Shown: piece by piece, positions 2,017-29,282 of the stretch
Position numbering within the stretch: position 1 is the first letter of the stretch
How the letters are laid out: each line of letters starts with the position of its first letter
Assembly: GCF_014696615.1 (NCBI RefSeq)
Contig: NZ_JACJQJ010000070.1
Coordinates: 1 to 43,953, forward strand
Length of the DNA: 43,953 bases
Direction of reading: 5' to 3'
DNA from: Nostoc linckia FACHB-104
GTDB lineage: Bacteria > Cyanobacteriota > Cyanobacteriia > Cyanobacteriales > Nostocaceae
Translations under genes and position numbers: made by a program
Notes under the pieces: generated by a model
Databases searched by the model: none
The model's input: only the letters and a program-made list of their open reading frames with translations
Told to the model about the DNA's origin: nothing

Positions 2017-2027
2017 ATCTCACTAAC

Positions 2028-2846
2028 TTAGGACTCATCACTGGCGCTAGGCTTTCTTTTTCCAGGAATTAAACCACGTCTTCCTGGCATTTTAGAAAGC
2101 AATAGGAAGCGTCGCAGATGTTGTAGCTGTTCAGTATCGCCTAGCAGTTCTAACTGTTCTAAGGCTTCTGTAAAAGTTAAGTTAGAGCGATAGAGAATGC
2201 GGAAGGCTTTTTTGAGAAGTTGTAACTCATTCGCATTCATACCAGAACGTTTTAACCCTACTAAGTTAAGGGTTCTAACTCTGGCTGGATTTCCTTCCAC
2301 AAGCATATATGGCGGTACATCGCGGTCAACACGAGCCATACCGCCTACCATTGAGTGTTTGCCAATCCGCACAAATTGATGGACTCCCAAAACTCCGCCC
2401 AGCCTAGCGCGTGATTCTATGTGAACATGACCCGCTAAGGCTACTGAATTGGGGATAATCACATGGTCTTCGATCACGCAGTTATGAGCTACATGAACAT
2501 AAGCCATCAGTAGGTTACCATTGCCAATGATTGTGGCTTCTCCAGCACCAGTAGCACGGTTGATCGTGACGTACTCACGAATTTGGTTATTGTCGCCAAT
2601 TTTGACCCAGGTAGGTTCTCCCACATATTTGAGATCCTGGGGTTCCATACCGATAGCTGCACCAGGGAAAATCTGATTTCGCGCCCCAATTTCACATGGC
2701 CCTTCTAGCACTACGTGAGCACCAATTACGGTTTCAGGGCCAACTTTAACCTGCGCTCCAATCACAGCATAGGCACCGACTTCCACCGTTGGGTGGAGTT
2801 CCGATTTAGGATGAATTACAGCAGTTGGATGAATAAGCGTCTTCAA
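2028..2846 (-). CDS. lpxA: UDP-N-acetylglucosamine O-acyltransferase LpxA
   Basis: First enzyme of lipid A synthesis: moves a 3-hydroxyacyl chain from acyl-ACP to UDP-GlcNAc. The first 190 or so residues are left-handed beta-helix hexapeptide repeats ([LIV]Gxxxx). In HVAHNC the histidine at residue 121 corresponds to the catalytic His125 of E. coli. GGMARVDRDVPPYMLVEGNPARVRTLN leads into the helical C-terminal domain typical of LpxA. The length of 272 aa is close to E. coli's 262 aa; the short basic tail (GKRKPSASDES) is extra. The start is the ATG at 2846. It sits 203 bp after fabZ on the same strand. Confidence 0.95.
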   Translation of the reverse strand: MKTLIHPTAVIHPKSELHPTVEVGAYAVIGAQVKVGPETVIGAHVVLEGPCEIGARNQIFPGAAIGMEPQDLKYVGEPTWVKIGDNNQIREYVTINRATGAGEATIIGNGNLLMAYVHVAHNCVIEDHVIIPNSVALAGHVHIESRARLGGVLGVHQFVRIGKHSMVGGMARVDRDVPPYMLVEGNPARVRTLNLVGLKRSGMNANELQLLKKAFRILYRSNLTFTEALEQLELLGDTEQLQHLRRFLLLSKMPGRRGLIPGKRKPSASDES

Positions 2847-3049
2847 GGGTAAATCTCCAGAACTGTCATGAGTGCTGAACTTTTTGAGTATTCAGTTACG
2901 AAAGTGTCGGGCAAAGCAAGTTAAGTGTGAGGGCAGCGAAATTTAAAAATTATAAATTACTCTTGTGGCTGATTAATTTTACTGTTATCCTTTTTCAGGT
3001 CTCAGTAAAAAGCACATCACGGCTGTGCGCTCACCACAAGAGCAGGTTT

Positions 3050-3565
3050 TTAGTTTACAAGAGAAAACATTAATTCGCCTTCAGCCGCTAACTGACCGTC
3101 AACTTCAGCACGACCTTGCATTTTACCGAAACGACGTTGTTTAACCCACAACAGTTCCACGGTCATAATTAGCTGATCACCGGGAACTACTTGGCGACGA
3201 AAGCGGACTTTATCAATCCCAGCAAACACGAATAGTCCACCTTCTAACTCTGGTAGCTGTGTCATGACCATACCGCCTACCTGTGCCATTGCTTCGACAA
3301 TTAGCACTCCAGGCATCAGTGGCCGTCCTGGGAAATGTCCTTGAAAATGGGGTTCATTAAAAGTGACATTTTTCACGCCTACCGCTAGTTTGCCAGGTAC
3401 ATAGTCAATAATTTTATCTACCAGTAAAAATGGGTAGCGATGGGGCAAAAGGCTTTGAATCTCTTCAATGGCGAAGGTTTTCTTTGGCTCTGGTGCGCTT
3501 TGATTGTCATCATTAGCAGCAGATGCGATCGCATCGACGGTATTGGCTTCGGTGAGGGTTGTCAT
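3050..3565 (-). CDS. fabZ: 3-hydroxyacyl-ACP dehydratase FabZ
   Basis: A hot-dog-fold dehydratase of type II fatty acid synthesis. It competes with LpxA for 3-hydroxyacyl-ACP, which explains why it is encoded between lpxC and lpxA. The core [14 protein letters not shown] comes first, then [16 protein letters not shown] with catalytic His77, followed by Glu91 in [10 protein letters not shown]; this 14-residue spacing equals that of E. coli His54/Glu68. The first 30 residues (acidic, Asn/Ala rich) are an extra tail compared with the E. coli enzyme. The length is 171 aa. The gap to lpxC is 86 bp and contains heptamer repeats. Confidence 0.95.
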
Positions 3566-3646
3566 TGGCTATGTGTTTGTTTTTTATCTGGAATCAAGTC
3601 AGCGACGGAATTTTAGAGTTATAACTTCAGATTTTTGCATCAATCC

Positions 3647-3674
3647 AAAATCTAAAATCTAAAATCTAAAATTC
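3647..3674. repeat. AAAATCT heptamer array
   Basis: Three exact AAAATCT units (3647-3667) plus a decayed fourth. The minus-strand stop codon of lpxC (3652-3654) and its last codons (LDFRF) are written by this array. Confidence 0.75.
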
Positions 3675-4503
3675 TTTGTGCCAGTTGAATGTGTAAATTG
3701 TGGCTGGCCTTATACGCTAAGAAGTGAGCGCAGGGGATATTTCCCACTAAACTCAAATCTCCTACTAAATCCAAGATTTTATGACGTACTGGCTCATTTG
3801 CAAATCTTAATGGTGGATTTAACCATCCATCAGGGCCGCAAACAAGGGCATTTTCTAAACTACCACCTTTGATTAACCCAGACTTTTGCAAATGTTCTAT
3901 TTGATGCAATAAACCAAAAGTACGGGCGGGAGCAATTTCTATAGCGAAGTCTGCATAAGAGTTTTCTTTTTCAGATCGGGGTGACCAACTGTGCCATTGA
4001 TTACCAATAGCAGTCAGTTCAAAGTCAATACCATAGCTAAAACGAGTTTCTGGTGCGGGAATAGCCGCCACAAACGTATCACCCTCATAAATCCAAATTG
4101 GATCTTGAATAGCTAGGGGTGATTTTTCTTCAGCCACGGATTGCGATCGCAATCCCACTTGAGCGATGCTTTCCGTCCATATCCTTGCTGAACCATCCAT
4201 TAGGGGCACTTCTGGCCCATCAATTTCAATTCGGGCGTTATCTACACCCATACCTACCAGAGAAGCCAATAAATGCTCTACAGTGCGGACAGAAGCCACG
4301 CCTTTACCCAATTGGGTAGAGAGAACCGTTTGACTAACTGCGGCAACTTGCGCCGGAATAATGGGCGAATCTGGTAAATCGACTCGCACAAAGTAGCGCC
4401 CGCTACCTACTTCGGCTGGTAGTATTCGCACCTGAGTATTCACACCGCTATGCAGTCCTACTCCGGTTTGAGTGATTTCTGCGGCTATTGTGTGTTGTTG
4501 CAT
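3652..4503 (-). CDS. lpxC: UDP-3-O-acyl-N-acetylglucosamine deacetylase LpxC
   Basis: The zinc-dependent, committed step of lipid A synthesis, in the cytoplasm. Zinc ligands are visible as His77 (TVEHLLASL), His241 and Asp245 ([10 protein letters not shown]), with the catalytic His268 (ASHNLHIQL). The 241/245/268 spacing equals 238/242/265 of E. coli. GVGLHSG near the N terminus and [11 protein letters not shown] are conserved signatures. The length is 283 aa; the E. coli tail of about 20 residues is absent and the C terminus (LDFRF-stop) is encoded inside a heptamer array, so the natural end may have been redefined by repeat expansion. It is followed by fabZ and preceded by bamA. Confidence 0.95.
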
Positions 4504-4507
4504 AATT

Positions 4508-4693
4508 TTGGGGACTAGGGACTGGGGAACTCGGGGCCCCCACGATCGCAGGGAGTGGGGATTAGGGGTAATGGGGACTGGGGACTGGGGATTGGGTATT
4601 GGGATAGAGCAGGGGGGACAAGGGGAAATTACTGTTACCCATTACCTATTACCAAATATCCTATGCCCAATGCCCCATGCCCTATGCCCTATA
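4508..4693. repeat. composite STRR cassette between bamA and lpxC
   Basis: The left half is G-rich degenerate heptamers (GGGGACT, GGGGATT; about 4508-4620). The right half is C-rich heptamers of the TGCCCAA/TGCCCTA type (about 4660-4693), with an ATTACC-type stretch between. It lies just beyond the bamA stop (4699). The same G-rich to C-rich layout recurs at 9082-9257, 15254-15423 and 34024-34115. Confidence 0.75.
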
Positions 4694-4698
4694 TCCAT

Positions 4699-7305
4699 TT
4701 AAAACCTTTCCCCAATGCCAAAGTTGATGCGGCTGTCACCGTCGTCATTGACACCGTAGTCAATGCGAATTGGCCCTAATGGTGATTGCACACGCACGCC
4801 GAGACCGTAGCCGAAACCACTACCGTTTTTGTTCAGTAATTCTGCGGCTCTGGTACTGGTGCCTAAATCACTACCATAATCGAAAAATAATGCGCCACTA
4901 ACTACGGAGAATACGGGGAAGCGATACTCAACTGAGGCTTGCACGTAACTGCGAGCGCTGGTTAATGTGCCTTCTTCATAACCCCGAACGGAGTTACTAC
5001 CACCTAAGGTAAAGGCTTCATAGGGGGGTAAGTCACCTAAAACAGTGCCTCCTTGCAGGTTAAAAGCCAAAGTTTGCGGCCCTTTGCTAAAACTTAATAA
5101 ACTAATGGGGATATATTGGCTGTAGCTACCCCGTAACCTGGTGAGGAAAATGTTACCTTGCCCGATGGGAACTGACTGATCGACCCCGAAACGGAGATAA
5201 GAACCGCTAGTGGGTTGTAAGGGGTTATTACGGCGATCGCGTTGCGCTCCTAACTGTAATAGAAATAAATCGTCATCACCTGACCCTGATTGCGTAAGGG
5301 GAATCAGTTCTGTTGGTAGCCCATTCTGGTAAATTGTCCCTTGGGTTCTGCTATCGCCATCGGCATTCTTGGTGGAAACTCTTTGATATTGGAAACCAGC
5401 TGAAGCAGTCCATTCGGAATTACCAAAGGGATTCGCAGATAACGGACGTGTAAAAGTTACACCACCACCTAAGCGGACAACACGGGGGCGATCGCCTTCT
5501 GTATCTCCTGGGGCAAATGTCTCAATATTTTGGTCTTTGCCGTCAAAAATCAACGAAATGGAACGACGGCGGAAAATATTGGCAGTGTAGGACGTGCGGT
5601 AAGGGTCGCCGTCAATCCAAGGATCTGTAAAGCGCAGGTCAAATAGTAGTTCTCTTTCACCTACTTGCAACTCTGCTCCTAATCTTTGGTTTCTACCATT
5701 GAGGTTTTGCTGTTGGTAACTAATAGTACCAAATAGTCCGCTGGCAGAACTAATCCCTGCACCTGCGGCAATCGAACCACTATTACGTTCAGCTACGTTC
5801 ACTACTACATCTACCCGGCTGGGGTCGCTACCAGGGTCGAGGGAAACGTTGACATCTTCAAAGATGCCCAACCCATATACCCGTTGCAGGTCTTTTTGCA
5901 CTGTATTGCGGTTGAAGACTTGCCCTGGTTTCAACTCTAATTCTCGGGTAATGATGTAATCCTGTGTCCGCCCCCGAATTGGTTGTCCTTGCTCGTCGGT
6001 TTCCTGACCTTCTTTATTGCGGAACCGAACTTTAATATTCTCTACTACCCCTTCTGCGACTTGCAAAGTCACAACCCCATTTTCTGATACTTGGGGTGCG
6101 CCGATGACATTTGCTAGTACATAACCTTTATCTTGATAGCGTTTGGTTAATTGCTTGATACCTTCCTGCAAGTCACGCAAGTTGAGGATTTTACCATACT
6201 GATCGCGGAAAACTTCGTCTGCTGTGTTTTGTGGCAGTACTGAGGCCACGCTAGTACCAGGATTCGCTTGGATTTGGACTTTGGTGAGGGTGGGGTTGGG
6301 TTGCACAACAAAGCTGACCCGGACTCCCAATGGTGTATCTTCTGGCACTGCTTGGACATTTGAGAAGAAGCCAGTACCGAAGATAGCATTGATATCTTCT
6401 TGGAGTTGAGTACGGGTGGTTGTTCTTCCTGGCTGGGTACGAACGACAGAATAAACTTGATTTTCCAGTTCTGGTGTTAGTTGCCCCGCTTGCGCTCTCA
6501 CTGCAACTTCCGATACCAACACACGGGGTTCACTCGATTCTGTAGTGGTATCTGGATTTGTGGGAAACACAGGTGTACCCACAGGTGGAGTAGTACCAGG
6601 AGCCGGAGACGGTGCTGGTTGTTGCGTACCTGGCGTGGGTTGTGGGGTTGTTTGCTGTGGAGTTGTTTGCGGAGCTTGTTGGAGAGTTGGTTGCGGGGTT
6701 GTTTGCTGTGGAGTTGTTTGTGGAGCTTGTTGGAGAGTTGGTTGTGGAGTTGCTTCCTCTGGAGTTGGTTGTGGGGTTGTTTCCTGTGGAGTCTGTGCTA
6801 TCTGCATGGGAGAGACAGCGATGTTGCGAGATTGCAGACCCTGGAGTGCCCTCACCCCGGAGCTAGAGGTGTTAGGTGCGGCATTGGGCACTATGATAGA
6901 TTTGATTGCCGTATTTGCTGGCTGAATGGGCAAAGCGGCAATATTGCGAGACTGCAGACCTTGTAGTGCCTTCACCCCTGCACTTCGGGTAGTTGGTGCA
7001 ATCGCAGTTGGCACTATGACTGGTTGTGTCTGATTTGCGGCTGGAATTGCTAAGGTAGCCACAGTCTGAGGCTGAGAACCTTTCACCACTGCTGCTTGGG
7101 GGAAGGTAGCAACAGATTTGGCTTGTTCACCAGATTGTTCTTGAGCAATACCATTTTCAGACTGCTGATTTGTCGTCGGTGTCAACACCTCTACTGGTTG
7201 TGACAAATCTAAATCTGGGTTAGCTGTCTGTGCATTTGCACTTATGGGGTTACCTAAAGGGGCTGCAATTGCTACTGCTGCCACCATTGCGGGAGATAAA
7301 CGCAT
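4699..7305 (-). CDS. bamA: outer-membrane assembly factor BamA (Omp85)
   Basis: Inserts beta-barrel proteins into the outer membrane. Residues 1-26 (MRLSPAMVAAVAIAAPLGNP...ANAQ) are a signal peptide. About 60-255 is a low-complexity Pro/Gln/Thr linker with a 51-bp repeat. Three POTRA domains follow (about 260-345, 345-430, 430-505). The Bac_surface_Ag barrel runs from about 507 to 868, with the lid-loop motif VRGYEEG and a terminal Phe (GERF). Three POTRAs plus a Pro-rich N region is the cyanobacterial/chloroplast form. The longest ORF starts at a GTG at 7332; the ATG at 7305 (868 aa) is preferred because it puts the signal peptide at the N terminus and has GAGG 12 nt upstream. It is the first gene of the lpx run. 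Confidence 0.93.
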   Translation of the reverse strand: MRLSPAMVAAVAIAAPLGNPISANAQTANPDLDLSQPVEVLTPTTNQQSENGIAQEQSGEQAKSVATFPQAAVVKGSQPQTVATLAIPAANQTQPVIVPTAIAPTTRSAGVKALQGLQSRNIAALPIQPANTAIKSIIVPNAAPNTSSSGVRALQGLQSRNIAVSPMQIAQTPQETTPQPTPEEATPQPTLQQAPQTTPQQTTPQPTLQQAPQTTPQQTTPQPTPGTQQPAPSPAPGTTPPVGTPVFPTNPDTTTESSEPRVLVSEVAVRAQAGQLTPELENQVYSVVRTQPGRTTTRTQLQEDINAIFGTGFFSNVQAVPEDTPLGVRVSFVVQPNPTLTKVQIQANPGTSVASVLPQNTADEVFRDQYGKILNLRDLQEGIKQLTKRYQDKGYVLANVIGAPQVSENGVVTLQVAEGVVENIKVRFRNKEGQETDEQGQPIRGRTQDYIITRELELKPGQVFNRNTVQKDLQRVYGLGIFEDVNVSLDPGSDPSRVDVVVNVAERNSGSIAAGAGISSASGLFGTISYQQQNLNGRNQRLGAELQVGERELLFDLRFTDPWIDGDPYRTSYTANIFRRRSISLIFDGKDQNIETFAPGDTEGDRPRVVRLGGGVTFTRPLSANPFGNSEWTASAGFQYQRVSTKNADGDSRTQGTIYQNGLPTELIPLTQSGSGDDDLFLLQLGAQRDRRNNPLQPTSGSYLRFGVDQSVPIGQGNIFLTRLRGSYSQYIPISLLSFSKGPQTLAFNLQGGTVLGDLPPYEAFTLGGSNSVRGYEEGTLTSARSYVQASVEYRFPVFSVVSGALFFDYGSDLGTSTRAAELLNKNGSGFGYGLGVRVQSPLGPIRIDYGVNDDGDSRINFGIGERF
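6639..6788 (-). repeat. 51-bp coding repeat in bamA linker
   Basis: Two nearly identical 51-bp units (6639-6689, 6690-6740) and a third, decayed and partial, encode TPQPTLQQAPQTTPQQT in the linker ahead of the POTRA domains. A second internal duplication nearby gives two copies of ALQGLQSRNIA. Confidence 0.8.
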
Positions 7306-7358
7306 TTTATTTAAATTCCTCTTCTCGTCCACACACCATCAAAAAGCAATTATGAAAA

Positions 7359-9262: not shown

Positions 9263-11860
9263 CTATTTATTGATCATTGTCCAGACACCATCCCAAGAAT
9301 CATGGGGTGGTGTTTTTTGGTAATTATAAGAGCGTTCTAGATGGATATTAACTGCTTGGTCTTGGGGGCGAAGGTTTTTTGCGGCTTCAAAGCAAGCGAT
9401 CGCGCGGGTAAAGTTCCGTGCCAAGTAAGCCATGCGTCCCGACTGGTAATAAAACAGAAATTCTTGGGTAGCATCATCTAGGGGTTGAGTGCGATCGCCA
9501 ATTAATTCATAGATATTTACCGCTTGATACTTACCTTTGACGCGGATTTTATCTAGTTGACGCGTCCAAATGCGATCGCTGCAAAGCTGGTAGGTAAATT
9601 CGCTCAAAATAATGTCACAACCATATTCTTTGGTGACAGCTTCCAAGCGGGAACTTAAATTTACGCCATCACCGATGACGGTGTAATCCATGCGTTTGTG
9701 GGAACCGATGTTACCAGAAACCACTTCTCCCGAACTAATACCAATCCCGATATTAATTTGTGGTTGTGATTGAATAATCCGCCGACGATTAAATTCTGCT
9801 AGGCGTTGGCGCATATCTAAGGCTGATTGTACAGAACGCCAGGCGTGATTTTCCGTCAGCGGTAAGGGTGCGCCAAATACTGCCATTAAAGCATCACCAA
9901 TAAATTTATCTAGGGTGCCTTCATGGTTAAATACTGCCTCTACCATCGTTTCAAAATATTGGTTGAGTAGCGATACCACCTCCGCCGCACCCAGATTTTC
10001 TGTGAGTGTGGTGTAACCGCGGATATCGGAAAATAAGATGGTGACTTCCTTGCGTTCCCCCACCATTAAAGCATCTTCCCCCAAAGCCATGACCTGTTCA
10101 GCTACATGGGGGGTGAGATAGCGGTACATGGTAGTTTTCATGCGTTTTTCCCGGCTGATGTCTTCTAAAACTACCAAGCCACCTCTCACGCCGCCTTCTG
10201 GGTTAGTTAAGGGATTTACTGTTAAATTAAGGCTGCGTTCTAACTTTTGTACCTCGCTAGCACTCAAAAACTTCGATTGGGGAGTCAGGGGTTGATTCCA
10301 GGGAATAAACACATCTGGATTAGTGCGATCGCGGACTGCCAAAATAAAATGCTGCGTCCAAACTCCTGCATCTAAGCTGTCACTAGGCGACTTAGTTTCA
10401 GAACTTTGGATAGGATATAGCCCTACTGTCAAACTTTGCTCGGGAACGTAATGTTTAGCCCCTGTTTTTAAACTATCTTCTAAGCGCATTTGTAGATTTT
10501 CAATTGGCACCACTTCCCAAACCAGGCGACCGAGTAAATTTTGTTCCCACAACCGCTTATTAGATTTTGTATTTGTATCTCTAACAGGACAACCCAGTAA
10601 TGCTAATGCGGCATCATTAATAGTGACAATTCTGCCTTCCATGTCTGTAGAAATAACCGCATCAGACAAACTTTGCAAAATGTCTTTTTGATACTGCTTT
10701 TCTAATAGTACATTTTCAAATAAACGAGCATTTTCCAAGGCAATTCCAGCTTGGATGTTAAAAGCCCGCATAAATTCTTCATCGGAGGCAGTAAAGCTCC
10801 CTTGCTGCTTATTAATTAACTGTGTTACACCAATTAATTCATTTGCCGAATTAAATACTGGCAAACACAAAATATTGCGCGTTACATACCCAGTTTTCCT
10901 ATCTGTAGATGGATCAAATCGGGGGTCTTTATAAGCATCAGGAATATTTACAGCTTGCCCAGTGGAAGCCACAAAGCCAACAATACCGCGATTGCTGGGC
11001 ATCCGGATTTCTATAGTATTTGCACCATCTGCGGCGGCGGCTACCTTTGTCCAAAGTTCGCCCATTTCTTTACGATGCAAAAACAGAGTACTGCGATCTG
11101 CTTGCATTAAAATTCGGGCTTGCTCCATGACTATTTGCAAAGTTGCTTCTAAATCTAAGCTTTGCCCTAGAGTTTGAGTTGCTCTTAAAAGTGCTGTTGC
11201 TCCCCGTTGGTTGCGTGCTGCAACATAAAAAGTCTGACAGCTTTCTAATATGATCCCAATCGAAGCGGCAAAATCCCGAAACCGCTCTTCATCATCTTGA
11301 TTAAATGGCAGATTACCTGCTTTATTTGCCAGTTGTACTACAGCTACAGTTTGATTTTTACTGCTCACAACCGGCATACATAAAATATTATGAATTTTAT
11401 AGCCCATTTGCTTTTCTAATTCTGGGCTAAATAAGGGATGAGTAGAAGTTTCAGCTATATTTAAATATTGCCCAGTACTGGCAACATGACCAGGAATACC
11501 AACTGTAATGGGCGTGCGAATTTCTAAAAATTTTTGTGTATTATCCTGAGGAACTTTTGACCACAATTGATTTTTATCATAATCCACTAAAAAAATAGCC
11601 GTGTGTTCTGCTTGCAGAATTTGACCTATTTTTAATGTGATTGCTTCTAGAACCTTCTCCAGCATAGTTTCTAGAGCTTCATTATTGATTAATTCAATTG
11701 CTCTCAGAAATTGCTGAAATTCTGCGGTAATAAAATCTAATAAACAAACAAATTCGTTAACAGAAAGGTCTTTCACACGACGCAATAAAGCGTGGGTACG
11801 ATTGACTTGAGTGAGTTCGGTTAATGTAGCCAAGACGCTACCAGGATTAGGGAGTGTCAT
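9263..11860 (-). CDS. cyaB: adenylate cyclase, GAF-GAF-PAS-cyclase (CyaB type)
   Basis: A class III adenylate cyclase that makes cAMP from ATP in the cytoplasm. Two GAF domains (about 55-215 and 235-395), each with the NKFDE-type cyclic-nucleotide signature (NKAGNLPFNQDDE; NKQQGSFTASDE), then a PAS domain (about 400-520). The catalytic domain is at about 590-785, with metal-binding Asp in FSDIRGYTT and GDALMAVFGAP, the adenine-selecting Lys in LDKFIGD, and MDYTVIGDGVNLSSRLE. A helical TPR-like tail follows. The architecture and 865 aa match Anabaena CyaB1/CyaB2 (about 860 aa), in which a GAF domain binds cAMP for positive feedback (known of the family). A longer frame from 11962 reads through repeats, so the ATG at 11860 is chosen. 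Confidence 0.93.
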   Translation of the reverse strand: MTLPNPGSVLATLTELTQVNRTHALLRRVKDLSVNEFVCLLDFITAEFQQFLRAIELINNEALETMLEKVLEAITLKIGQILQAEHTAIFLVDYDKNQLWSKVPQDNTQKFLEIRTPITVGIPGHVASTGQYLNIAETSTHPLFSPELEKQMGYKIHNILCMPVVSSKNQTVAVVQLANKAGNLPFNQDDEERFRDFAASIGIILESCQTFYVAARNQRGATALLRATQTLGQSLDLEATLQIVMEQARILMQADRSTLFLHRKEMGELWTKVAAAADGANTIEIRMPSNRGIVGFVASTGQAVNIPDAYKDPRFDPSTDRKTGYVTRNILCLPVFNSANELIGVTQLINKQQGSFTASDEEFMRAFNIQAGIALENARLFENVLLEKQYQKDILQSLSDAVISTDMEGRIVTINDAALALLGCPVRDTNTKSNKRLWEQNLLGRLVWEVVPIENLQMRLEDSLKTGAKHYVPEQSLTVGLYPIQSSETKSPSDSLDAGVWTQHFILAVRDRTNPDVFIPWNQPLTPQSKFLSASEVQKLERSLNLTVNPLTNPEGGVRGGLVVLEDISREKRMKTTMYRYLTPHVAEQVMALGEDALMVGERKEVTILFSDIRGYTTLTENLGAAEVVSLLNQYFETMVEAVFNHEGTLDKFIGDALMAVFGAPLPLTENHAWRSVQSALDMRQRLAEFNRRRIIQSQPQINIGIGISSGEVVSGNIGSHKRMDYTVIGDGVNLSSRLEAVTKEYGCDIILSEFTYQLCSDRIWTRQLDKIRVKGKYQAVNIYELIGDRTQPLDDATQEFLFYYQSGRMAYLARNFTRAIACFEAAKNLRPQDQAVNIHLERSYNYQKTPPHDSWDGVWTMINK

Positions 11861-11862
11861 GA

Positions 11863-11972
11863 GGACTGGGGATTGGGGACTGGGGATTGGGGACTGGGGA
11901 TTGGGGACTGGGGATTGGGGACTGGGGACTGGGGATTGGGAGACAAGGGGACAAGGGGACAAGGGGACAAGG
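11863..11972. repeat. STRR1 array (CCCCART) plus GGACAAGG array
   Basis: Eleven perfect 7-bp units (GGACTGG/GGATTGG, the complement of CCCCAGT/CCCCAAT; 11863-11939) followed by four 8-bp GGACAAGG-type units (11941-11972). It abuts the cyaB start codon and so forms its 5' leader. The plus strand has evenly spaced GGGG runs that could form G-quadruplexes. Confidence 0.9.
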
Positions 11973-16497: not shown

Positions 16498-19194
16498 TCA
16501 AATCATCAACTGAAAGAACAAAGCGGTAAAACCCAACATCAGTAATAGATGGGGAATGTTGTGCAATAGCGATCGCTTGGTAATCTGCAGCAGGGGATAA
16601 GGACTGAACAACATCGCTGAAATCAGGGTGACACCTTGCAAGAATTGAGCTACATCTAAACTCCAGGTGAGCGTAGGTAAGCTTGCGCCACTGTAGCCCA
16701 GGGTTTGGGCGACAACTGGCAGAATCTGCCCTGCTTCCGTGACAGCACCGGGAATGTAATGCGTCAGATTGGCTGCTAGGGTTAAGGGGAGGTAAGCATA
16801 GATGACGGTGAGATAATCTGGATGCTGAGAATCGAAAAAGCGAGCGATCGCATGAGTCAAATAAGTTAAAACGGCGGGAATGCTCAAGAGAACGAGGGCT
16901 ATGGGAATGCTGCTCAATAAATGCTCGGCATCGACAACAACAGTGTCAAAGCCCAACCATGCCAAAATCTGATGAGCATGATGCATAAAGACACCGCCCA
17001 ATAACAGCAGCAACAGAGCCACTTCTGCCCACAATCCTGTGTGATTTTCTAGCAAATCCGCAGCCGGGAACCGCAAATTGAATTGTGCTGAGCGATTGGG
17101 ACAACCTTTGAGACAGGTCATACAAAACGTACAGTCCCGGTTATCCTGCAATTGCGCTGGATGTAAATATAGCGGACATCCCCCCGTTGCTTGTCCTTCG
17201 GTTGGTAAGGCTTCAGCGAAGGTAATTGTGGTTGGGCCTGTACCTTTATAGCAGCCAAAAGTTTTGCATTGACTACCACAAAGTTGTTGAGCCGATCGCA
17301 ATTCGACTATCGCTAGTTTGGCAAATAAGCCGTTCATCCCACCAATAGGGCAAAGATAGCGACACCATAAGCGCCGTTCGTAAATCAAGCTGAAAATTAC
17401 GGCTCCGGCTGTGATGGTCAACAGCAAGCAAGCGGATAGATAAGCATGGTGCGGTAAATCCCAGAGTTTTTCCCACAGGTAAATGGCGACAAAGCCACTA
17501 AATACAATCCAACTTCCCCAACGGTTTAACCATTTGGTATTCCAGGTAAGTTGTTGGCGGGGAAATAACCACAGAGAAATTCGCCTGATCCACTCTCCAG
17601 TAATCATAAATGGACAAACAGCGCACCACAACCGCCCCACAAAGGCAAATAGGAAGAGATAGCCAGGCCACCACCACGCCCAAAATAAATTCAGCGTGAT
17701 ACTGCTATCCCGGCCTTGAGGGCCAATGAAACCCAGCACTGTCACAGGTACAAAAATTGCCATCATGACTACCCAAATAGCTTTGGGATACCAATGACTC
17801 AGCAAAATTTGCCGTAACCAGGGTACGTGAGTTAACAAATCCAGGCGAAAGGAATTTTTGGTTGATTCCACCGACCACAATGCTTGTTCTGGGATGATCG
17901 AATGTCCCAGAGGTGTCATCATTACGGCTCGGTGTAATATCTCTGCTAGTTCTGTAATATTTCCTGGGTAATCATAGCTAATCAGACGACGCAGATCGGA
18001 TTGATCTAGCCTTAACAAAGGGCGATTCTGTTCCTGACAAAACTGCTTCAAGAAATAGCTGGCAAAATCGGGAATGTCTGCTTTACGTTGGGGTAGGGTA
18101 AAAAGTTTGATGGTAATGGCATCAACATCAGATAAATCTAGTTTGTTAGGCGATGCCAAAATCAGACGCACCTGGGATTCAATAGGGGGAGCCGGTTTAG
18201 TAACAGGATTAATTTTGCCCACAATGCCTTGATTTGGCAGGATTAATCCCTTTGTTATGTAGTGAATCAAGCGCGAGCGATCGCCCTGACTCAATACATG
18301 GACATTATCTAGTAGTAGAGTTCCCCGTTCTAAAAGTTCGAGAATACTTGATTGCTGACCTACCCTACCAAACAACACATCTGTATTTAGCCGCCCATCT
18401 TCAGATCTGACTAACTCAGCACAGTCTAGTTCGGCAAAGGGTTGGGATGCCAATTCGGAACGACCATGAATTAACCCAGCCACAAATGTTTTACCCGTAC
18501 CTGCTTGCGCTTGCAACACCACAGGCTTGAGATTAGCTGCGGCTTCATTGATCTGTTCTGTGAGTTTTTGTGTGGCTTTACTATTACCCAGAATGCTTTT
18601 GTTGCTGGGTAATGGCTGGATGTATGGTTGTAAGCCTTGAATCCGTTCCTGTTCCTTAGCAATGCGAGTTGCGTACTCCAGCAAATCTTGAGAAAGTTGG
18701 GAGTGAACCAGCTTTTGAATCGCAGGGTATTTAGCAATCAGGTTGTAAAACTCTGCTTTGGGGAGAAACCAAATTTCGCTTTTGGCGAGAGCGATCGCAT
18801 TAGTTTGATAGGCTCCCTCAACTGCATTGGCAACCAGTGTATAACCAAACAAATCCCCTGGATGCCGATAGCGAATCAGCGATTGTCCCAGTAGCGATTG
18901 CCGGAAAATCTCCACCTTGCCCGATTTCAACAGGTATAGACCAATGGGGGTTTGTCCTTCTTGGTAAATCAGCGTTTGGGGTTCTACACAAAAGCAATGA
19001 AAAGACTCAGCGATCGCTTGCAGTGTTTCTGATGACAATTGTCCCCACACCTGATGCACGCTGAGGCAATCCCAACAATATTCCACCGCCTTGTCATCGA
19101 AAGTGACCTTATTCAAGGCATCCACAATCAACGGCAATGGTTGCTGAGTTAGGCTTTCCTGAATGGAAGAATCAATATATTGATTTAGGTACAA
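16498..19194 (-). CDS. CNBD / AAA+ / NosR-like iron-sulfur membrane fusion
   Basis: An 898-aa protein with three parts. Residues 45-170: a cAMP/Fnr-type cyclic-nucleotide-binding domain (LYLLKSGKVEIFRQ, RHPGDLFGYTLV). Residues 195-440: an AAA+ domain like that of sigma-54 activators, with Walker A QAGTGKT (about 228-236) but DN instead of DE in the Walker B (LLLDNVHVL, about 290) and no GAFTGA loop. Residues 460-898: six or more membrane helices with NosR/NapH/CcoG-type cysteine sets: WCAVCP (about 522), WCRYLCP (about 607), CGSQCKTFGC (about 636) and a ferredoxin-like CTFCMTCLKGCP (about 688). No DNA-binding HTH is seen. Probably a membrane redox/electron-transfer protein gated by a ligand; the role is unknown. 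Confidence 0.85.
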   Translation of the reverse strand: MYLNQYIDSSIQESLTQQPLPLIVDALNKVTFDDKAVEYCWDCLSVHQVWGQLSSETLQAIAESFHCFCVEPQTLIYQEGQTPIGLYLLKSGKVEIFRQSLLGQSLIRYRHPGDLFGYTLVANAVEGAYQTNAIALAKSEIWFLPKAEFYNLIAKYPAIQKLVHSQLSQDLLEYATRIAKEQERIQGLQPYIQPLPSNKSILGNSKATQKLTEQINEAAANLKPVVLQAQAGTGKTFVAGLIHGRSELASQPFAELDCAELVRSEDGRLNTDVLFGRVGQQSSILELLERGTLLLDNVHVLSQGDRSRLIHYITKGLILPNQGIVGKINPVTKPAPPIESQVRLILASPNKLDLSDVDAITIKLFTLPQRKADIPDFASYFLKQFCQEQNRPLLRLDQSDLRRLISYDYPGNITELAEILHRAVMMTPLGHSIIPEQALWSVESTKNSFRLDLLTHVPWLRQILLSHWYPKAIWVVMMAIFVPVTVLGFIGPQGRDSSITLNLFWAWWWPGYLFLFAFVGRLWCAVCPFMITGEWIRRISLWLFPRQQLTWNTKWLNRWGSWIVFSGFVAIYLWEKLWDLPHHAYLSACLLLTITAGAVIFSLIYERRLWCRYLCPIGGMNGLFAKLAIVELRSAQQLCGSQCKTFGCYKGTGPTTITFAEALPTEGQATGGCPLYLHPAQLQDNRDCTFCMTCLKGCPNRSAQFNLRFPAADLLENHTGLWAEVALLLLLLGGVFMHHAHQILAWLGFDTVVVDAEHLLSSIPIALVLLSIPAVLTYLTHAIARFFDSQHPDYLTVIYAYLPLTLAANLTHYIPGAVTEAGQILPVVAQTLGYSGASLPTLTWSLDVAQFLQGVTLISAMLFSPYPLLQITKRSLLHNIPHLLLMLGFTALFFQLMI

Positions 19195-21133: not shown

Positions 21134-22210
21134 TTATAATTGTGCATCAACTAGCTGTTGTGATGCTTGATTGAGTTGCTCAATCATACTTTTCTGAATC
21201 GTAGGTTCTAAGGCACTGAAAATACTTGCATATTCTTCTTGGAAACTTTCTAAAACATCTCTCACTAATAATTCCACTAATTGTTGACGTTGTTTTGTAT
21301 TGTTAGCAGCAACTCTACCAAATTTAGAAATAACATTGTTCAATCTTGTAGGTGTGACTAACGCCAGCATTTCTTGACTTAATTCTTCTTCAAGGCTTAC
21401 CTGATGTTGTAGTATGGGCTGTTGTGCAACAGTCCATTTTTGTGCTTGGTGAAATCGGTTATCTTCAGCAAACTCCGGAATTTTCTGCTTAATAATCGGA
21501 CGTGTTTTCTGTTTACCAGTCTCTACATAAATAGAATGGAGAGGTTTAATTACAACTCCTTCAGCTTTATTAGTAAAGGGTAATTTAGGTAAACCTAAAA
21601 TTGCCGGAATTGTAGATTCAAACTCGATGTTATATGCTAATGCATCATGATATTTACCGATAAATAACGGTGCAGATGCCATCATGCCAACTTGTTGAAA
21701 TAGTTTGAAGGCTATTTCATAATCTAAATAGTATGTTTCTGCCGCTATATCACCCTGCACCACTACAATATCAAAAGCAGAGTATTCTATTTTTGGTGAG
21801 TAATAAACACCAGTTTGCACAGCCTGCACATGGCTGATAGCCGGGACATCAGGATGGGGATACTCACCACCAAATAATTCTCCATAGATATATATTTTTT
21901 GCAACTGAGTGTCAGATTGCAAAATTCTAAAAATTTCCTGCGCTTGGGACATTAATTTAGGTTGTAAAGATTGATAACCAAAAAAATCTTCCCCTGGCTG
22001 CAAGAACTCCTTTCTTTTGGCAAAGCGTACCTCAAAACCATCAGTACATATCCCAAAGTTCGCACCATGAATTTTCTCCGTTACCACCCAATCTGTTTTG
22101 TTAAACAGGCGATAGTCGGATTCTGTCAAACCCAATTTATTGAAGTTTTCCGGAATTTTCTCATAACTGAGATAAGTCCAGTCTGTGATGTTGCTATCCA
22201 CTGTATTCAT
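21134..22210 (-). CDS. Rnl2-type RNA ligase
   Basis: An ATP-dependent RNA ligase of the T4 Rnl2 (nick-sealing) branch. All nucleotidyltransferase motifs are present in order: motif I EKIHGANF with the AMP-accepting Lys46; FAKRKEFLQPGEDFFGY (63-79), closely like T4 Rnl2; motif III YGELFGG (109-115); motif IIIa YSAFDIVV (143-150); motif IV EGVVIKP (217-223); motif V IIKQKIPEF (239-247). A helical C-terminal domain (about 250-358) is present, as in T4 Rnl2 (334 aa). The partner and RNA target are unknown; the neighbours are a carotenoid oxygenase and a BMP-binding protein, on separate transcripts. It starts at the ATG at 22210. Confidence 0.87.
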   Translation of the reverse strand: MNTVDSNITDWTYLSYEKIPENFNKLGLTESDYRLFNKTDWVVTEKIHGANFGICTDGFEVRFAKRKEFLQPGEDFFGYQSLQPKLMSQAQEIFRILQSDTQLQKIYIYGELFGGEYPHPDVPAISHVQAVQTGVYYSPKIEYSAFDIVVVQGDIAAETYYLDYEIAFKLFQQVGMMASAPLFIGKYHDALAYNIEFESTIPAILGLPKLPFTNKAEGVVIKPLHSIYVETGKQKTRPIIKQKIPEFAEDNRFHQAQKWTVAQQPILQHQVSLEEELSQEMLALVTPTRLNNVISKFGRVAANNTKQRQQLVELLVRDVLESFQEEYASIFSALEPTIQKSMIEQLNQASQQLVDAQL

Positions 22211-23837: not shown

Positions 23838-26800
23838 ATGACTAATGAAAATTTCACCCCGATTATTCCCGGATATCAAATTGTTTCTCAACTGTATGCG
23901 GGTTCTAGAACGAAGGTTTATCAAGCTATTCGAGAATCAGATTCACTTGCAGTCATCATGAAAATGTTGGCCGCTGAATATCCTAGTTTCTACGAATTAT
24001 TGCAATTTCGTAACCAATATACAATTAGCAAACATCTCAATATTCCTGGTATTATTCAACCACTATCACTAGCAACATATAGCAATGGTTATATTCTAGT
24101 GATGCCATATACAGGGGATATTTCTTTACAAGAATATATTAAAAATACTAATCTTTCTTTATTAGAATTTTTAACTATTGCAATTCAATTAACTAGTATT
24201 CTCCAAGAATTACATCACAACCGTGTCATTCATAAAGATATTAAGCCAGCAAATATTCTGATTCATCCCCAGACGAAACAAGTTCAACTGATTGATTTTA
24301 GTATTGCTTCTCTTTTACCGAAAGAAAGCCCAGAAATTAAAAATCCCAATGTCTTAGAAGGGACACTTGCTTATATTGCGCCCGAACAAACTGGGAGGAT
24401 GAACCGAGGTATAGACTACCGCAGTGATTATTATGCGCTGGGTGTGACATTTTATGAATTATTGAGTGGAGAATTACCATTCAATTGTGATGATGCGATG
24501 GAGTTAGTACATTGTCATCTGGCGAAAATTCCTCAGGAATTAGGGAACAGTAAAGAGATACCAAAAGTAATTTCTGATATTGTGATGAAATTGCTGGCGA
24601 AAAATGCTGAGGATAGATATCAAAGTGCTTTGGGATTAAAGCATGATTTAGAAACTTGTTTATATCAATTAAAAAATTATGGCGTGATTAGAGATTTTGA
24701 AATTGGTCAGCGGGATGTGTGCGATCGCTTCCTGATTCCGGAGAAATTATACGGGAGAGAAGCAGAAGTTAGCACTTTACTGCAAGCCTTTGAGCGCATC
24801 GCCAATGGTAATTCAGAAATGATGCTGGTGGCGGGCTTTTCGGGGATTGGGAAAACAGCTGTTGTGAATGAAGTTCATAAGCCGATTACCCGACAACAAG
24901 GCTATTTTATTAAAGGTAAATTTGACCAATTTAATCGTAATATTCCCTTCTCTGCTTTTGTGCAAGTCTTTCGCGATTTGATGGGGCAATTACTAGCAGA
25001 ATCTGATACTCAATTGCAAATTTGGAAAAATAAAATTATAGGAGCGTTGGGAGATAATGCCCAAGTAATTATTGAGGTAATTCCGGAATTAGAACGGATT
25101 ATTGGCGTACAACCACCTGCACCTGAATTATCAGGTACATCTGCACAAAATCGGTTTAATTTGCTCTTAGAAAAGTTCATTCAAGTTTTTACGACAGCAG
25201 AACATCCTTTAGTGATATTTTTAGATGATTTGCAATGGGCGGATTCCGCATCGCTAAAGTTGATTGAGTTGCTGATGGGTGAATCATCCACAGGGCATTT
25301 ATTATTAATTGGTGCTTACCGAGATAATGAAGTGTTTGCGGCCCATCCTTTGATGTTGACTTTAGATGCGATCGCCAAAGCCCAAGCTAAGGTAAATACT
25401 ATTACCTTAAAGCCCTTATCACAGCCAAGTTTGAATCAGTTAGTAGCTGATACTTTGCATTGTGCAGCAATATTGGCGCAACCATTAACAGAATTGATAT
25501 ATCAAAAAACTCAAGGAAATCCTTTTTTTGCCACCCAATTTTTGAAAGGATTACATCAAGATGGATTGATTACATTTGATTCCCAAACTAGATATTGGCA
25601 ATGTGATATTACTCAGGTAAGCGCTGCGGCATTAACAGATGATGTAGTCCAGTTTATGGCGCAGCAATTGCAAAAACTGCCAGTTGAGACACAGGAAGTA
25701 TTAAAACTAGCGGCTTGTATTGGTAATCAGTTTGATTTGGGGACATTAGCAATTGTCTGCGAACAATCAGAAACTACAGCTGCTACTGCTTTATGGAAGG
25801 CTTTACAGTTAGGGTTAATTTTGCCCCAAAGCGAAGTTTATAAATTTTATTTGAGTGGCGATCGCGCAGATGTAGATACTACAAATAATGAAAATGCTAC
25901 CTATCGATTTCTACATGATCGCGTTCAACAAGCGGCTTATTCTCTAATTCCTACTGACCAAAAACAAACTACTCATCTCACAATTGGGCAACTGTTACTT
26001 AAACATACATCATCAACAGAAATTGCCGAAAAAATCTTTGATATAGTTAATCAATTCAAATTAGGTATAGATTTAATTACTGATGGCCAAGAGCAAATAA
26101 AATTAGCTGAATTAGCTTTAATTGCTGGACGCAGAGCTAAACACGCCACAGCTTATGCCGCAGCAGTAGACTATTACAGTATAGCGAGAACATTGTTAGC
26201 AAATCACAATTGGCAAGAATTTTATGAATTAATGCTAGCAGTGTATACAGAAGCAGTGGAAGCAGCTTATCTCAATACTGATTTTGAGCAGATGGAACAA
26301 TTAGCGGAAATTGTTCTTAAATACATCACCAATATTTTAGATAGCATACCTATTTATGAAACCAAAATTTTAGCTTGTGTTGCCAAGAATCACCTGCGGT
26401 TAGGATTAGATATAGCTTTGGTTGTGCTTCATGATTTGGGTATAGATATTCCTGCCTACCCCACACCAGAAGATATCGGTAAATCCCTAGGGGAAACTCA
26501 TCAGATATTAGCAGGAAAAGACCCCTTAGAATTAATCGATTTACCTTTAATGACAGATGCGCGCGCCAAAGCAGCAATTCGCATTTTGTCGAGTATGTTT
26601 GGTTCTGCTTATAATGGTTGTCCCGAAATGTTACCCCTGATTATCGGGCAGCAGGTTAACTTATCAATTGCATATGGCAATACCAACTTATCTGCTTTTG
26701 CTTATGCCAGTTATGGTTTAATTCTCTGTGCTTTTGTTGGTGCTGTAGAAACAAGTTATCAATTTGGGCAACTGGCGTTAAATTTAATGGAAAAATTCTC

Positions 26801-29282
26801 TGCAGAAGAACTACACGCCAAAATTGCCGCCGTATTTAATAATTGCATCAGACATTGGCAAGATCCTCTACAAAAAACCCTAGAATCTTTACTCACAGGT
26901 TATCAAAGCGGATTGACAACGGGAGATTTAGAATGGGCTGTTTGGTGCATATTTGGCTATAGTTTCCATTCGTACTGCGCTGGTAAAGAACTGACAGGAT
27001 TAGAACCAGAATTAGCCACTTATGGAATAGCGATCGCAGAACTGAAACAAACCACAGCCCTGAATTATCAAAAAGCTTACCACCAAGCTGTTTTAAATTT
27101 ACTAGGTGGCAGTGAAATTCCTTATCGTTTGGTGGGTAATGTCTACAACGAAGATGTGATGTTACCGCAACACCAAGCAGTTAATGATCGCCCGGCTGTT
27201 TATCACGTACAAATTAACAAAGTAATTCTCTGCTACTTGTTTGGCGAATACGAACAAGCGATCGCACAAGCCACTCTTGCTGAACAATATTTAGATGGTG
27301 TACCGGGATTATTTGTCAGTGTTTTGCTGCCTTTTTATGATGCTTTAGCGCATTTGGCAATCTTAAAATCTGTGACTGAAGAATCATCTCATAGTTGGGA
27401 ACGCATTCAAAATCATCAAGCCAAACTTAAGCAATATGCCGATTTTGCCCCCAATAATCATTTGCACAAATTGCACCTAGTAGAAGCTGAATGCTGTCGC
27501 GTGTCGGGTGATTCTTACACAGCAATGGAACTCTATGATCGCGCCATCACGCAAGCAAAAGCAAACGGCTACCTACAAGAAGAAGCTTTAGCCAACGAAC
27601 TTGCGGCTAAATTCTATTTTGATTGGGGTAAAGAAAAAGTAGCTGCTGGTTATATGCAGTCAGCTTATTATTGCTATTCCCGTTGGGGTGCGAAAGCTAA
27701 AACCGATGATTTAGCAAATCGCTACCCCGATTTACTGCGTCCAATTTTACAGCCAGCCAACCAAAGCTGGAATCCTCTAGAAACTTTAGCAACTCTGGCT
27801 ACTTCCCGTGCCTCAGTTCATGCTTCTACAGGTACCCAGGCTGCTAGTACGAGTCTCAACATAGCTCTAGATTTTGCTGCTGTGCTCAAAGCATCTCAAA
27901 GTCTTTCGAGTACAATTCATTTTGACGAACTACTGCGCCAATTAACTCAAATTATTCTGCAAAACTCTGGTGGCGATCGCTGTGCTTTAATCCTACCCAA
28001 TAGTGATGGTAATTGGTATCTGCAAGCCATTACGACACCAGAAACTACAGAACTTTGCTCACAACCACTAGAGGGAAACTGTAATATACCAGTCAAGCTG
28101 ATTCAGTATGTCAAAAATACTCAAGAAGTTGTGGTAATTGAGCAGCTGAAAACAGATTTAACTGTCATTGATGAATATTTAACTCAAAAGCAACCTAAAA
28201 GTATCTTGTGCTTGCCAATTCTCCATCAAGGAAATTTGATTGGGATTTTATATTTGCAGAATCGTTTTACTAGTGGTGTATTTACGAGCGATCGCATCCT
28301 GATTTTAGATTTTCTTTGCACTCAAGCTGCTATTTCCTTAGAAAATGCTCGACTGTATCAACAAATCGCCAACTATTCGCAAAACCTAGAAGCAGAAGTA
28401 GAGCAAAAAACGCTGGCACTCAACCAAAAAGCCCAAGATTTAGAAGATACATTACAACATCTACAAAAAACCCATGCTCAATTGATTCATTCTGAAAAAA
28501 TGTCATCCTTGGGGCAATTAGTAGCAGGAATCGCTCACGAAATTAACAATCCTATCAGTTTTATTATGGGCAATATAGAGCATTTAGAAAATTATATTAC
28601 CGACTTGATGAGTTTAATGAAACTTTATCAGGAAGAATATGCTCAACCTTCTGCCAAAATTAAAGCTAAACGCGATGAAATAGATATCGATTTTATTTAT
28701 AAGGATGTAATTAATATCCTGCAATCAATGGAAGCTGGCAGCGATCGCATCAGTCAGATTGTCTTAAGTTTACGTAACTTTTCTCGCTTAGATGAATCAC
28801 CAATTAAAGCCGTGGATTTACATAGTGGCATAGAAAGTACACTATTAATTTTGCAAAATCGCTTGCAAGCTTATAAACACCAACCTGAAATACAACTCAT
28901 TAAAGAATATGGTAATCTTCCTGCTGTCACTTGCTATCCCGGACAGTTGAATCAAGTATTTTTGCATATCCTCAACAATGCCATTGATGCGATTCGCGAA
29001 GCTGGAAACAATATCACACAGCCACAAATTCGGATTCGTACAGAAGTAGTTGAAAATGAGCAGATAAAAATTGCGATCGCCAATACCAGCAGTTTTATTC
29101 CCTTGCATATCCAACAACGGATATTTGAACCATTTTTCACTACTAAACCTATAGGTAGGGGTACAGGTTTAGGATTATTTGTCAGCTATTCTATTATTAA
29201 AAAACATGGTGGTAATATCACCGTCAATTCTCTACCTAAACAAGAAACAGAATTTGTAATTTCCATTCCGATAGCACCTTAG
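23838..29282 (+). CDS. giant Ser/Thr kinase-AAA-GAF-histidine kinase hybrid
   Basis: A 1814-aa soluble signalling protein of the cyanobacterial HstK class. Residues 10-275: Ser/Thr kinase with HKDIKPANIL as catalytic loop and DFS in place of DFG (usual in this class), then GRMNRGIDYRSDYYALGVTFYELL. Residues 300-570: predicted AAA/NACHT-like ATPase with Walker A GFSGIGKT (about 333) and FLDDLQWAD. Residues 700-1290: helical TPR-like region. Residues 1365-1510: GAF. Residues 1515-1560: coiled coil. Residues 1545-1640: HisKA with phospho-acceptor in AHEINNPISF (about 1566). Residues 1670-1812: HATPase (NNAIDAI, GRGTGLGLF). The signal and response regulator are unknown. Start ATG at 23838. Confidence 0.92.
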   Translation: MTNENFTPIIPGYQIVSQLYAGSRTKVYQAIRESDSLAVIMKMLAAEYPSFYELLQFRNQYTISKHLNIPGIIQPLSLATYSNGYILVMPYTGDISLQEYIKNTNLSLLEFLTIAIQLTSILQELHHNRVIHKDIKPANILIHPQTKQVQLIDFSIASLLPKESPEIKNPNVLEGTLAYIAPEQTGRMNRGIDYRSDYYALGVTFYELLSGELPFNCDDAMELVHCHLAKIPQELGNSKEIPKVISDIVMKLLAKNAEDRYQSALGLKHDLETCLYQLKNYGVIRDFEIGQRDVCDRFLIPEKLYGREAEVSTLLQAFERIANGNSEMMLVAGFSGIGKTAVVNEVHKPITRQQGYFIKGKFDQFNRNIPFSAFVQVFRDLMGQLLAESDTQLQIWKNKIIGALGDNAQVIIEVIPELERIIGVQPPAPELSGTSAQNRFNLLLEKFIQVFTTAEHPLVIFLDDLQWADSASLKLIELLMGESSTGHLLLIGAYRDNEVFAAHPLMLTLDAIAKAQAKVNTITLKPLSQPSLNQLVADTLHCAAILAQPLTELIYQKTQGNPFFATQFLKGLHQDGLITFDSQTRYWQCDITQVSAAALTDDVVQFMAQQLQKLPVETQEVLKLAACIGNQFDLGTLAIVCEQSETTAATALWKALQLGLILPQSEVYKFYLSGDRADVDTTNNENATYRFLHDRVQQAAYSLIPTDQKQTTHLTIGQLLLKHTSSTEIAEKIFDIVNQFKLGIDLITDGQEQIKLAELALIAGRRAKHATAYAAAVDYYSIARTLLANHNWQEFYELMLAVYTEAVEAAYLNTDFEQMEQLAEIVLKYITNILDSIPIYETKILACVAKNHLRLGLDIALVVLHDLGIDIPAYPTPEDIGKSLGETHQILAGKDPLELIDLPLMTDARAKAAIRILSSMFGSAYNGCPEMLPLIIGQQVNLSIAYGNTNLSAFAYASYGLILCAFVGAVETSYQFGQLALNLMEKFSAEELHAKIAAVFNNCIRHWQDPLQKTLESLLTGYQSGLTTGDLEWAVWCIFGYSFHSYCAGKELTGLEPELATYGIAIAELKQTTALNYQKAYHQAVLNLLGGSEIPYRLVGNVYNEDVMLPQHQAVNDRPAVYHVQINKVILCYLFGEYEQAIAQATLAEQYLDGVPGLFVSVLLPFYDALAHLAILKSVTEESSHSWERIQNHQAKLKQYADFAPNNHLHKLHLVEAECCRVSGDSYTAMELYDRAITQAKANGYLQEEALANELAAKFYFDWGKEKVAAGYMQSAYYCYSRWGAKAKTDDLANRYPDLLRPILQPANQSWNPLETLATLATSRASVHASTGTQAASTSLNIALDFAAVLKASQSLSSTIHFDELLRQLTQIILQNSGGDRCALILPNSDGNWYLQAITTPETTELCSQPLEGNCNIPVKLIQYVKNTQEVVVIEQLKTDLTVIDEYLTQKQPKSILCLPILHQGNLIGILYLQNRFTSGVFTSDRILILDFLCTQAAISLENARLYQQIANYSQNLEAEVEQKTLALNQKAQDLEDTLQHLQKTHAQLIHSEKMSSLGQLVAGIAHEINNPISFIMGNIEHLENYITDLMSLMKLYQEEYAQPSAKIKAKRDEIDIDFIYKDVINILQSMEAGSDRISQIVLSLRNFSRLDESPIKAVDLHSGIESTLLILQNRLQAYKHQPEIQLIKEYGNLPAVTCYPGQLNQVFLHILNNAIDAIREAGNNITQPQIRIRTEVVENEQIKIAIANTSSFIPLHIQQRIFEPFFTTKPIGRGTGLGLFVSYSIIKKHGGNITVNSLPKQETEFVISIPIAP

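Follow-up and report, generated by a model that had tools for sequence, protein, structure and literature searches.

What does a protein do in which a cyclic nucleotide-binding domain (CNBD), an AAA+ domain of the sigma54-activator type and an iron-sulfur (Fe-S) membrane domain follow one another in a single chain? The question is raised by an open reading frame (ORF) in a 43,953-nucleotide stretch of Nostoc linckia FACHB-104 (contig NZ_JACJQJ010000070.1 of assembly GCF_014696615.1, positions 1 to 43,953), referred to here as the window. The gene occupies positions 16498..19194 of the minus strand and encodes 898 residues from a TTG start codon, with GAGGT a few bases 5' of it. Public names given to its relatives include 'nitrogen assimilation regulatory protein' and 'cyclic nucleotide-binding domain-containing protein'. 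The preferred answer, held tentatively and at slightly under even confidence, is a quinone/Fe-S electron-transfer membrane protein with a degenerate regulatory head. It is backed by a conserved membrane module with conserved cysteines, matches to NapH models below cut-off, a headless relative in Deinococcus, members of the family labelled f25 that lack the CNBD, the loss of activator residues, the charges of the membrane loops and, in the clade of the window gene (clade A), linkage to the cysteine synthase gene cysK.

Domain organisation and distribution of the family

Pfam assigns the window protein to cNMP_binding (residues 70-156), Sigma54_activat (201-319), AAA_lid_14 (369-430) and two stretches of Fer4_5, all above the curated cut-offs. 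The same four domains lie in one chain in 40/40 aligned homologues of clades A and B (Pfam, E<=0.01), and the fusion is therefore neither an assembly artefact nor a chance event. The joining of CNBD, AAA+ and membrane Fe-S domains read in the initial annotation is thus borne out, and a search for the same architecture recovered it in every one of these homologues.

A scan of genome contigs yielded 370 relatives, the best 80 of which all carry cyanobacterial titles; the closest of these 80 belong to Calothrix membranacea (97% identity) and Nostoc carneum (95%). A family member at E<=1e-20 is present in 104 of 386 evenly sampled Cyanobacteriota genomes, all 104 from the window's class or nearer. 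Three forms are distinguished. Clade A shares 57-97% identity with the window protein (among the best 80 relatives) and occurs in 11 of the 386 genomes, that of the window included, clade B, about 40% identical to it, is the form met most commonly, and clade C is the short form of f25, taken to be the picocyanobacteria. Clades A and C each receive 100/100 support in a maximum-likelihood tree of the module, where long branches leave the deeper order uncertain. The patchy occurrence of clade A among cyanobacterial families suggests horizontal spread. The 9.39 Mb genome of the window also encodes one paralogue, 41% identical over most of the protein length, on another contig. Residue counts given below refer to 73 of 80 loci, seven clade A loci that are broken or short (L037, L039, L040, L044, L045, L046 and L047) being left out; clade C is represented by 9 of the 20 matching f25 genomes, L121 being left out of the counts.

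The membrane Fe-S module

The four-helix membrane module of the window protein (residues 471-616; 17347..17784, on the minus strand like all features of the gene) is defined by PF12801, the NapH models, predicted helices and loop charges. It displays two Cys-Pro motifs, CX2CP (Cys-524/527) and CX3CP (Cys-611/615), the first of the two being CX2CP rather than CX3CP. A ferredoxin-like segment follows (residues 639-698; 17101..17280), predicted to hold 2[4Fe-4S] through eight invariant cysteines, Cys-639/643/648/673 and Cys-688/691/694/698, and the chain ends in a C-terminal membrane extension of about five helices (residues 722-897; 16504..17031). The order of the cysteines, CX2CP and CX3CP, then C-C-C-CP, then CX2CX2CX3CP, resembles that of NapH/NosR. 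All 12 are invariant in 36/36 clade A, 37/37 clade B and 9/9 clade C proteins; the four cysteine sets noticed at the outset are thus located in the window protein and maintained across the three clades. Glu-724 is similarly invariant, and Tyr-799, Glu-820, His-738 and Gln-853 are nearly so. Positions identical in at least 94% of both clades A and B amount to 104 of 270 in the membrane/Fe-S part, 14 of 156 in the AAA+ core and just 4 of 106 in the CNBD.

PF12801 (Fer4_5) scores 28.9 bits in the window protein against a cut-off of 22 and was matched in 40/40 members at E<=0.01, with PF00037 matched in 24/40 at the same threshold. The NapH models NF007013 and TIGR02163 gave 31.3 and 31.8 bits, far below their cut-offs of 234 and 213. 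Together with the Deinococcus relative, the NapH-type and Fer4_5 matches point to a membrane redox module related to NapH/NosR in the C-terminal half, as the initial annotation had proposed. Judged from sequence, the conserved core of the family is this module, a relative of NapH, NosR and PceC. The module can exist without the head, since a standalone copy of 452 residues is found in Deinococcus ficus.

When the head is taken to be cytosolic, 2-11 Lys+Arg occur in four of the inner loops, which number five, against 0-1 in the four outer loops; these charges and the modelled helices predict a cytosolic location for both Cys-Pro motifs and for the ferredoxin segment. This topology bears on the possibility of a metal reductase or cofactor-maturation factor, which would deliver electrons to a metal or metalloenzyme across the membrane, a role known from CcoG or from NosR towards NosZ. 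The predicted cytosolic position of the motifs speaks against it, and the FTR1-linked relatives from which the idea draws retain an incomplete set of ferredoxin cysteines and show CX3CP at both positions. These distant, C-terminally extended relatives adjoin genes for the iron permease FTR1, an iron transporter and a cupredoxin in Rhizobium and Azospirillum, and a Sulfurovum relative adjoins TonB receptors. No metal-uptake family was present among the annotated neighbour clusters of the cyanobacterial genes (part of the clusters being annotated), an untyped RND transporter occurring in 4 clade A loci. Metal reduction or maturation is thus considered unlikely.

The pseudo-activator head

The Sigma54-activator-type AAA+ core (residues 197-352; 18139..18606) has the NtrC-type fold of a bacterial enhancer-binding protein. 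Its Walker A motif (AQAGTGKT, residues 229-236; 18487..18510) retains the Lys and Thr, as in 36/36 clade A proteins, while the P-loop Thr is replaced by Asp in 37/37 of clade B. In the Walker B motif (LLLDN, residues 293-297; 18304..18318) Asn occupies the position of the catalytic Glu, a residue absent from 73/73 sequences (Asn, His or Gln in 36/36 of clade A, Asn in 37/37 of clade B). The L1 loop (residues 277-290; 18325..18366) is shortened, comprising 14 residues in 34/36 clade A and 37/37 clade B proteins against 22 in two activators, and lacks GAFTGA, which was found in 0/75 aligned sequences. After the AAA+ lid (residues 353-440; PF25601; 17875..18138) the membrane module stands where a helix-turn-helix (HTH) would be expected. 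Pfam gave no match to an HTH family for the window protein at E<=0.05 or for any of 40 members at E<=0.01, and the sigma54 DNA-binding domain PF04552 had no match in the window genome, in a search whose control matched 4/14 genomes.

The absence of an HTH, of GAFTGA and of a sigma54 match in the genome makes a promoter-binding activator very unlikely, and a transcription activator was rejected on these features and the missing Walker-B Glu. The earlier statement that the protein has no DNA-binding domain agrees with the lack of an HTH match in the window protein and in the 40 members. A membrane-tethered activator, which the regulator-type public annotations of relatives would suit, meets the same four absences and is the least probable of all the explanations considered. 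The description of the AAA+ domain as an ATPase, in contrast, finds no support: with the Walker-B Glu missing throughout clades A and B and the P-loop Thr converted to Asp in clade B, ATP hydrolysis by the head is not supported by the residues present.

The CNBD and the cAMP question

The CNBD-type domain (residues 70-156; 18727..18987) is recognised by PF00027 (54.5 bits), PDB alignment and column counts. Alignment to PDB 4ev0 places the cassette Glu and Arg at Tyr-118 and Tyr-129 of the window protein. Position 129 is Tyr or His in 36/36 clade A proteins and never Arg in the 37 of clade B; position 118 is Tyr, His or Cys in 36/36 of clade A, and clade B carries a Glu one column away from the cassette position, at 119, in 33/37. 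In f25, Pfam found Fer4_5 in 9/9 proteins and the CNBD in none of the 9; in 8/9 the ORF also matches the AAA+ domain or its lid. Loci L112-L119 are natural CNBD-less members with a degenerate AAA+ domain. In L120 (5638-7715, minus strand) the gene extends over two frames, with the membrane module in one and the AAA+ part, 62% identical to L113, in the other (tblastn).

The initial annotation had considered control by cAMP conceivable because of a cyclase gene in the same window, and Pfam places a class III cyclase domain, together with GAF and PAS domains, at 9263-11962 on the minus strand. Electron transfer gated through the CNBD by cAMP from this neighbouring cyclase would be in keeping with the CNBD fold, with the cyclase and with the displaced Glu of clade B. 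The cassette Arg is nevertheless gone from clades A and B and the cassette Glu from clade A, and the domain is poorly conserved and was not found in clade C. A cAMP receptor was judged unlikely from the lost residues and poor conservation; cAMP control of the window protein is not supported by the alignments, and gating of electron flow by the nucleotide is highly improbable.

Gene neighbourhood and the cysteine synthase linkage

Neighbours were counted at 48 clade A loci (43 plus 5 non-duplicate) and 37 clade B loci, with mean ORF numbers of 10.08 and 10.05; L103, L104, L105, L107 and L111 were left out as duplicates. An unselected comparison of neighbour clusters revealed cysK near the gene in 24/48 clade A loci against 1/37 of clade B (p=6e-7). 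It lies downstream on the same strand in 24/24 of the clade A cases, with a gap of 6-165 bp in 20, and a representative of these neighbours scores 438 bits against a cysK cut-off of 351. L039 and L044, where the cysK pieces are partial or in several frames, are not part of the 24.

Other sulfur-type genes, encoding proteins like sulfide:quinone reductase (SQR), rhodanese, MBL-fold, TauE, DUF302, BLH and Hdr-like proteins, occur at 12/48 clade A and 0/37 clade B loci (nominal p 9e-4), and PetC, PsbA or CydA 10/48 and 0/37 (nominal p 0.004); both p-values are too good because the families were mostly chosen after the clade A loci had been seen, with representatives mostly from those loci. The names SQR-like, Hdr-like and persulfide-dioxygenase-like correspond to scores below curated cut-offs. 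In Aulosira laxa and Pseudanabaena galeata, plasmid-borne copies belong to islands that also carry cysK, psbA and petC, joined in the former by a 'transcriptional regulator' gene and in the latter by DsrE, glutaredoxin and rhodanese genes. Phormidium pseudopriestleyi, described in an excerpt of PMC8002359 as a sulfide-tolerant cyanobacterium, has the pair of family gene and cysK, the family gene being in two frames in that record.

Two further observations concern gene islands. The clade A islands L106 (3428-19427) and L021 contain heterodisulfide-reductase-like, NifB/X-like and nitronate-monooxygenase genes, with an SQR-like gene in L106. On a plasmid of Candidatus Chlorohelix allophototropha (L126, 532-8608) a 312-residue Fer4_5-type protein is encoded amid rhodanese, TusA, DsrE, MBL-fold and TauE genes, a separate pairing of membrane ferredoxin and sulfane-sulfur genes in another phototroph.

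Downstream of the window gene and on the same strand are genes for a 180-residue protein without a Pfam match and an epimerase and, farther on, for a DUF4291 protein and a glycosyltransferase; epimerase and glycosyltransferase are presumably sqdB and sqdX.

Proposed mechanism and its evaluation

In the proposed mechanism the protein would sit in the membrane facing the cytosol and transfer electrons in the manner of NapH, NosR and PceC. The helices and the CX2CP/CX3CP pair would hold a membrane carrier, plastoquinone being the likeliest, with which the cytosolic 2[4Fe-4S] ferredoxin-like segment would exchange electrons; the segment would in turn pass them to, or receive them from, a soluble partner. 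The head would derive from a transcription activator that had exchanged its DNA-binding end for the membrane module, and CNBD and inactivated AAA+ domain may now serve in docking, oligomerisation or gating, the CNBD having been discarded in the picocyanobacterial forms. Clade A would have been drawn into gene islands related to sulfide, persulfide and low oxygen, in the ancestral state as a gene pair with cysteine synthase, and its protein may direct electrons to or from sulfur chemistry while photosystem II is inhibited by sulfide. The sequence comparisons establish the architecture, the lost activator residues, the invariant cysteines and the cysK linkage of the clade; cluster binding, the quinone partner, the direction of flow, the role of the head and that in sulfur chemistry are inferred.

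A bolder version, regarded as doubtful, holds that in cyanobacteria without sigma54 a sigma54 activator came to gate a membrane quinone/Fe-S oxidoreductase from the cytosolic side, with the clade A head as an ATP switch. The protein would then form a hitherto unnamed route from the plastoquinone pool to persulfide/cysteine chemistry, or back, which together with the co-encoded cysteine synthase would keep photosynthetic cells going in sulfide. The idea of an ATP (energy-charge) switch stems from the intact P-loop of clade A combined with the loss of the hydrolysis Glu.

Several results weigh against the electron-transfer reading or its sulfur component. Structure prediction, put forward initially as a check, modelled the membrane helices, but the ferredoxin segment (about residues 627-717) is of low confidence in both models, and no PDB fold resembles the membrane module with a score high enough to lend support. 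Among the 43 clusters of the unselected neighbour comparison cysK alone survives correction, and the inflated p-values of the remaining families have been described above. ArsR-type genes adjoin 5/37 clade B genes against 1/48 of clade A, and the neighbour clusters contain no common pathway beside clade B genes. The deepest clade A lineages of the tree have the cysK link, which is absent from the nostocalean subclade of the window gene; the 8 ORFs scanned around the window copy include neither cysK nor another sulfur island gene, and the window genome has no match to one SQR query (E<=1e-40). Co-occurrence with SQR does not separate the clades (5/11 clade A against 24/93 clade B/C genomes, p=0.18). 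With no adjacent cysK and no SQR match in its genome, the window gene would have a sulfur role through clade membership only.

The degenerate AAA+ head is, moreover, present in every cyanobacterial form examined, L120 included, and is for this reason probably not useless. This retention favours the main rival explanation, a redox sensor, in which the Fe-S module would read the state of plastoquinone or of sulfide/oxygen and the head would signal through protein contacts, for example by titrating a partner, without electron throughput. The head is, however, the least conserved part of the protein, its CNBD is gone in clade C and the module occurs headless in Deinococcus. A sensor is thus a possible explanation, held with clearly less confidence than electron transfer.

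Should the electron-transfer reading be true, the annotation of a widespread cyanobacterial family with regulator names, in which strong conservation is confined to a membrane redox module, would conceal an electron-transfer branch of the photosynthetic/respiratory membrane. One clade would tie this branch to cysteine synthase, often near SQR-like, persulfide-handling and extra psbA/petC genes, and the gene pair with cysK would offer a concrete handle on cyanobacterial sulfide survival and on the shift to low oxygen. The family would also exemplify a pseudo-enhancer-binding protein with a non-transcriptional career.

Other genes of the window

The window contains 29 ORFs of at least 120 residues, of which the Pfam scan covered 19. 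Besides the gene described here, a 1814-residue chain (23838-29282, plus strand) combines Ser/Thr kinase, AAA_16, GAF and histidine kinase domains, and a 1492-residue protein (38995-43473, plus strand) has a PBP_like_2 domain and four DUF4912 stretches. A T4 Rnl2-type RNA ligase including its C-terminal domain is encoded in this cyanobacterial genome at 21134-22210 (minus strand), and a run of genes for LpxB, a hexapeptide acyltransferase (LpxA-type), LpxC and Omp85 extends over 564-7332 (minus strand).

Comparison with known systems

A literature search, with subscription papers mostly outside its coverage, found no paper on this protein family. Excerpts of PMC5928378 state that PceC, NosR and NapH have a membrane module in common, that NapH has been proposed to draw electrons from quinols, and that NosR, which carries C-terminal 4Fe-4S clusters, was first named a regulator and later reinterpreted as an electron-transfer protein. 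Similarly, an excerpt of PMC8238504 holds that NapH-like proteins probably transfer electrons across the membrane that come from quinol or a similar donor, and describes flavinylation components as scarce in Cyanobacteria.

Like NapH/MauN (TIGR02163, NF007013; aligned over residues 514-709), the window protein has a paired Cys-Pro membrane core followed by a two-cluster ferredoxin segment. Paracoccus NapH, in contrast, has CX3CP twice where the first motif of the window protein is CX2CP, and the window protein has about five C-terminal helices more than NapH as well as a large head predicted to be cytosolic. Neither napG nor nitrate reductase was found among the scanned neighbours. With NosR/PceC (RdhC) the window protein shares, as far as the excerpts describe that module, the two Cys-Pro motifs of the membrane part; its head consists of CNBD and AAA+, unlike theirs, and the extracytoplasmic FMN-binding domain typical of NosR/PceC is not among the 13 Pfam families matched by the 40 members. 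An ordinary NapH or NosR was rejected on the NapH scores below cut-off and the missing FMN-binding domain.

The nearest headless relative is WP_027463891.1 of Deinococcus ficus ('4Fe-4S binding protein', 452 residues), 26.6% identical over 92% of the module. It shares with the window protein the CX2CP first motif, the ferredoxin segment and the C-terminal helices, has no CNBD or AAA+ domain, lacks the Pro after its second Cys motif and adjoins a gene for a His-rich, probably exported protein. A Natrinema relative also displays CX2CP as the first motif, with several ferredoxin cysteines missing. As a separate observation, L123 (4007-5383) and L125 (4782-6197) encode C-terminally extended Fer4_5 proteins with few ferredoxin cysteines, directly after genes for FTR1 iron permease, cupredoxin and an iron transporter.

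The head departs from both of its known counterparts. Compared with the sigma54 activators NtrC1, NifA and PspF, the family has an L1 of 14 rather than 22 residues and lacks GAFTGA, the Walker-B Glu and the HTH. Compared with CRP/FNR and PKA/PKG domains, the cassette Arg position is never Arg, clade A has no cassette Glu and there is no DNA-binding domain. The membrane module is thus of a known kind, and what is new is its fusion to a pseudo-activator and the clade-specific bond with cysteine synthase.

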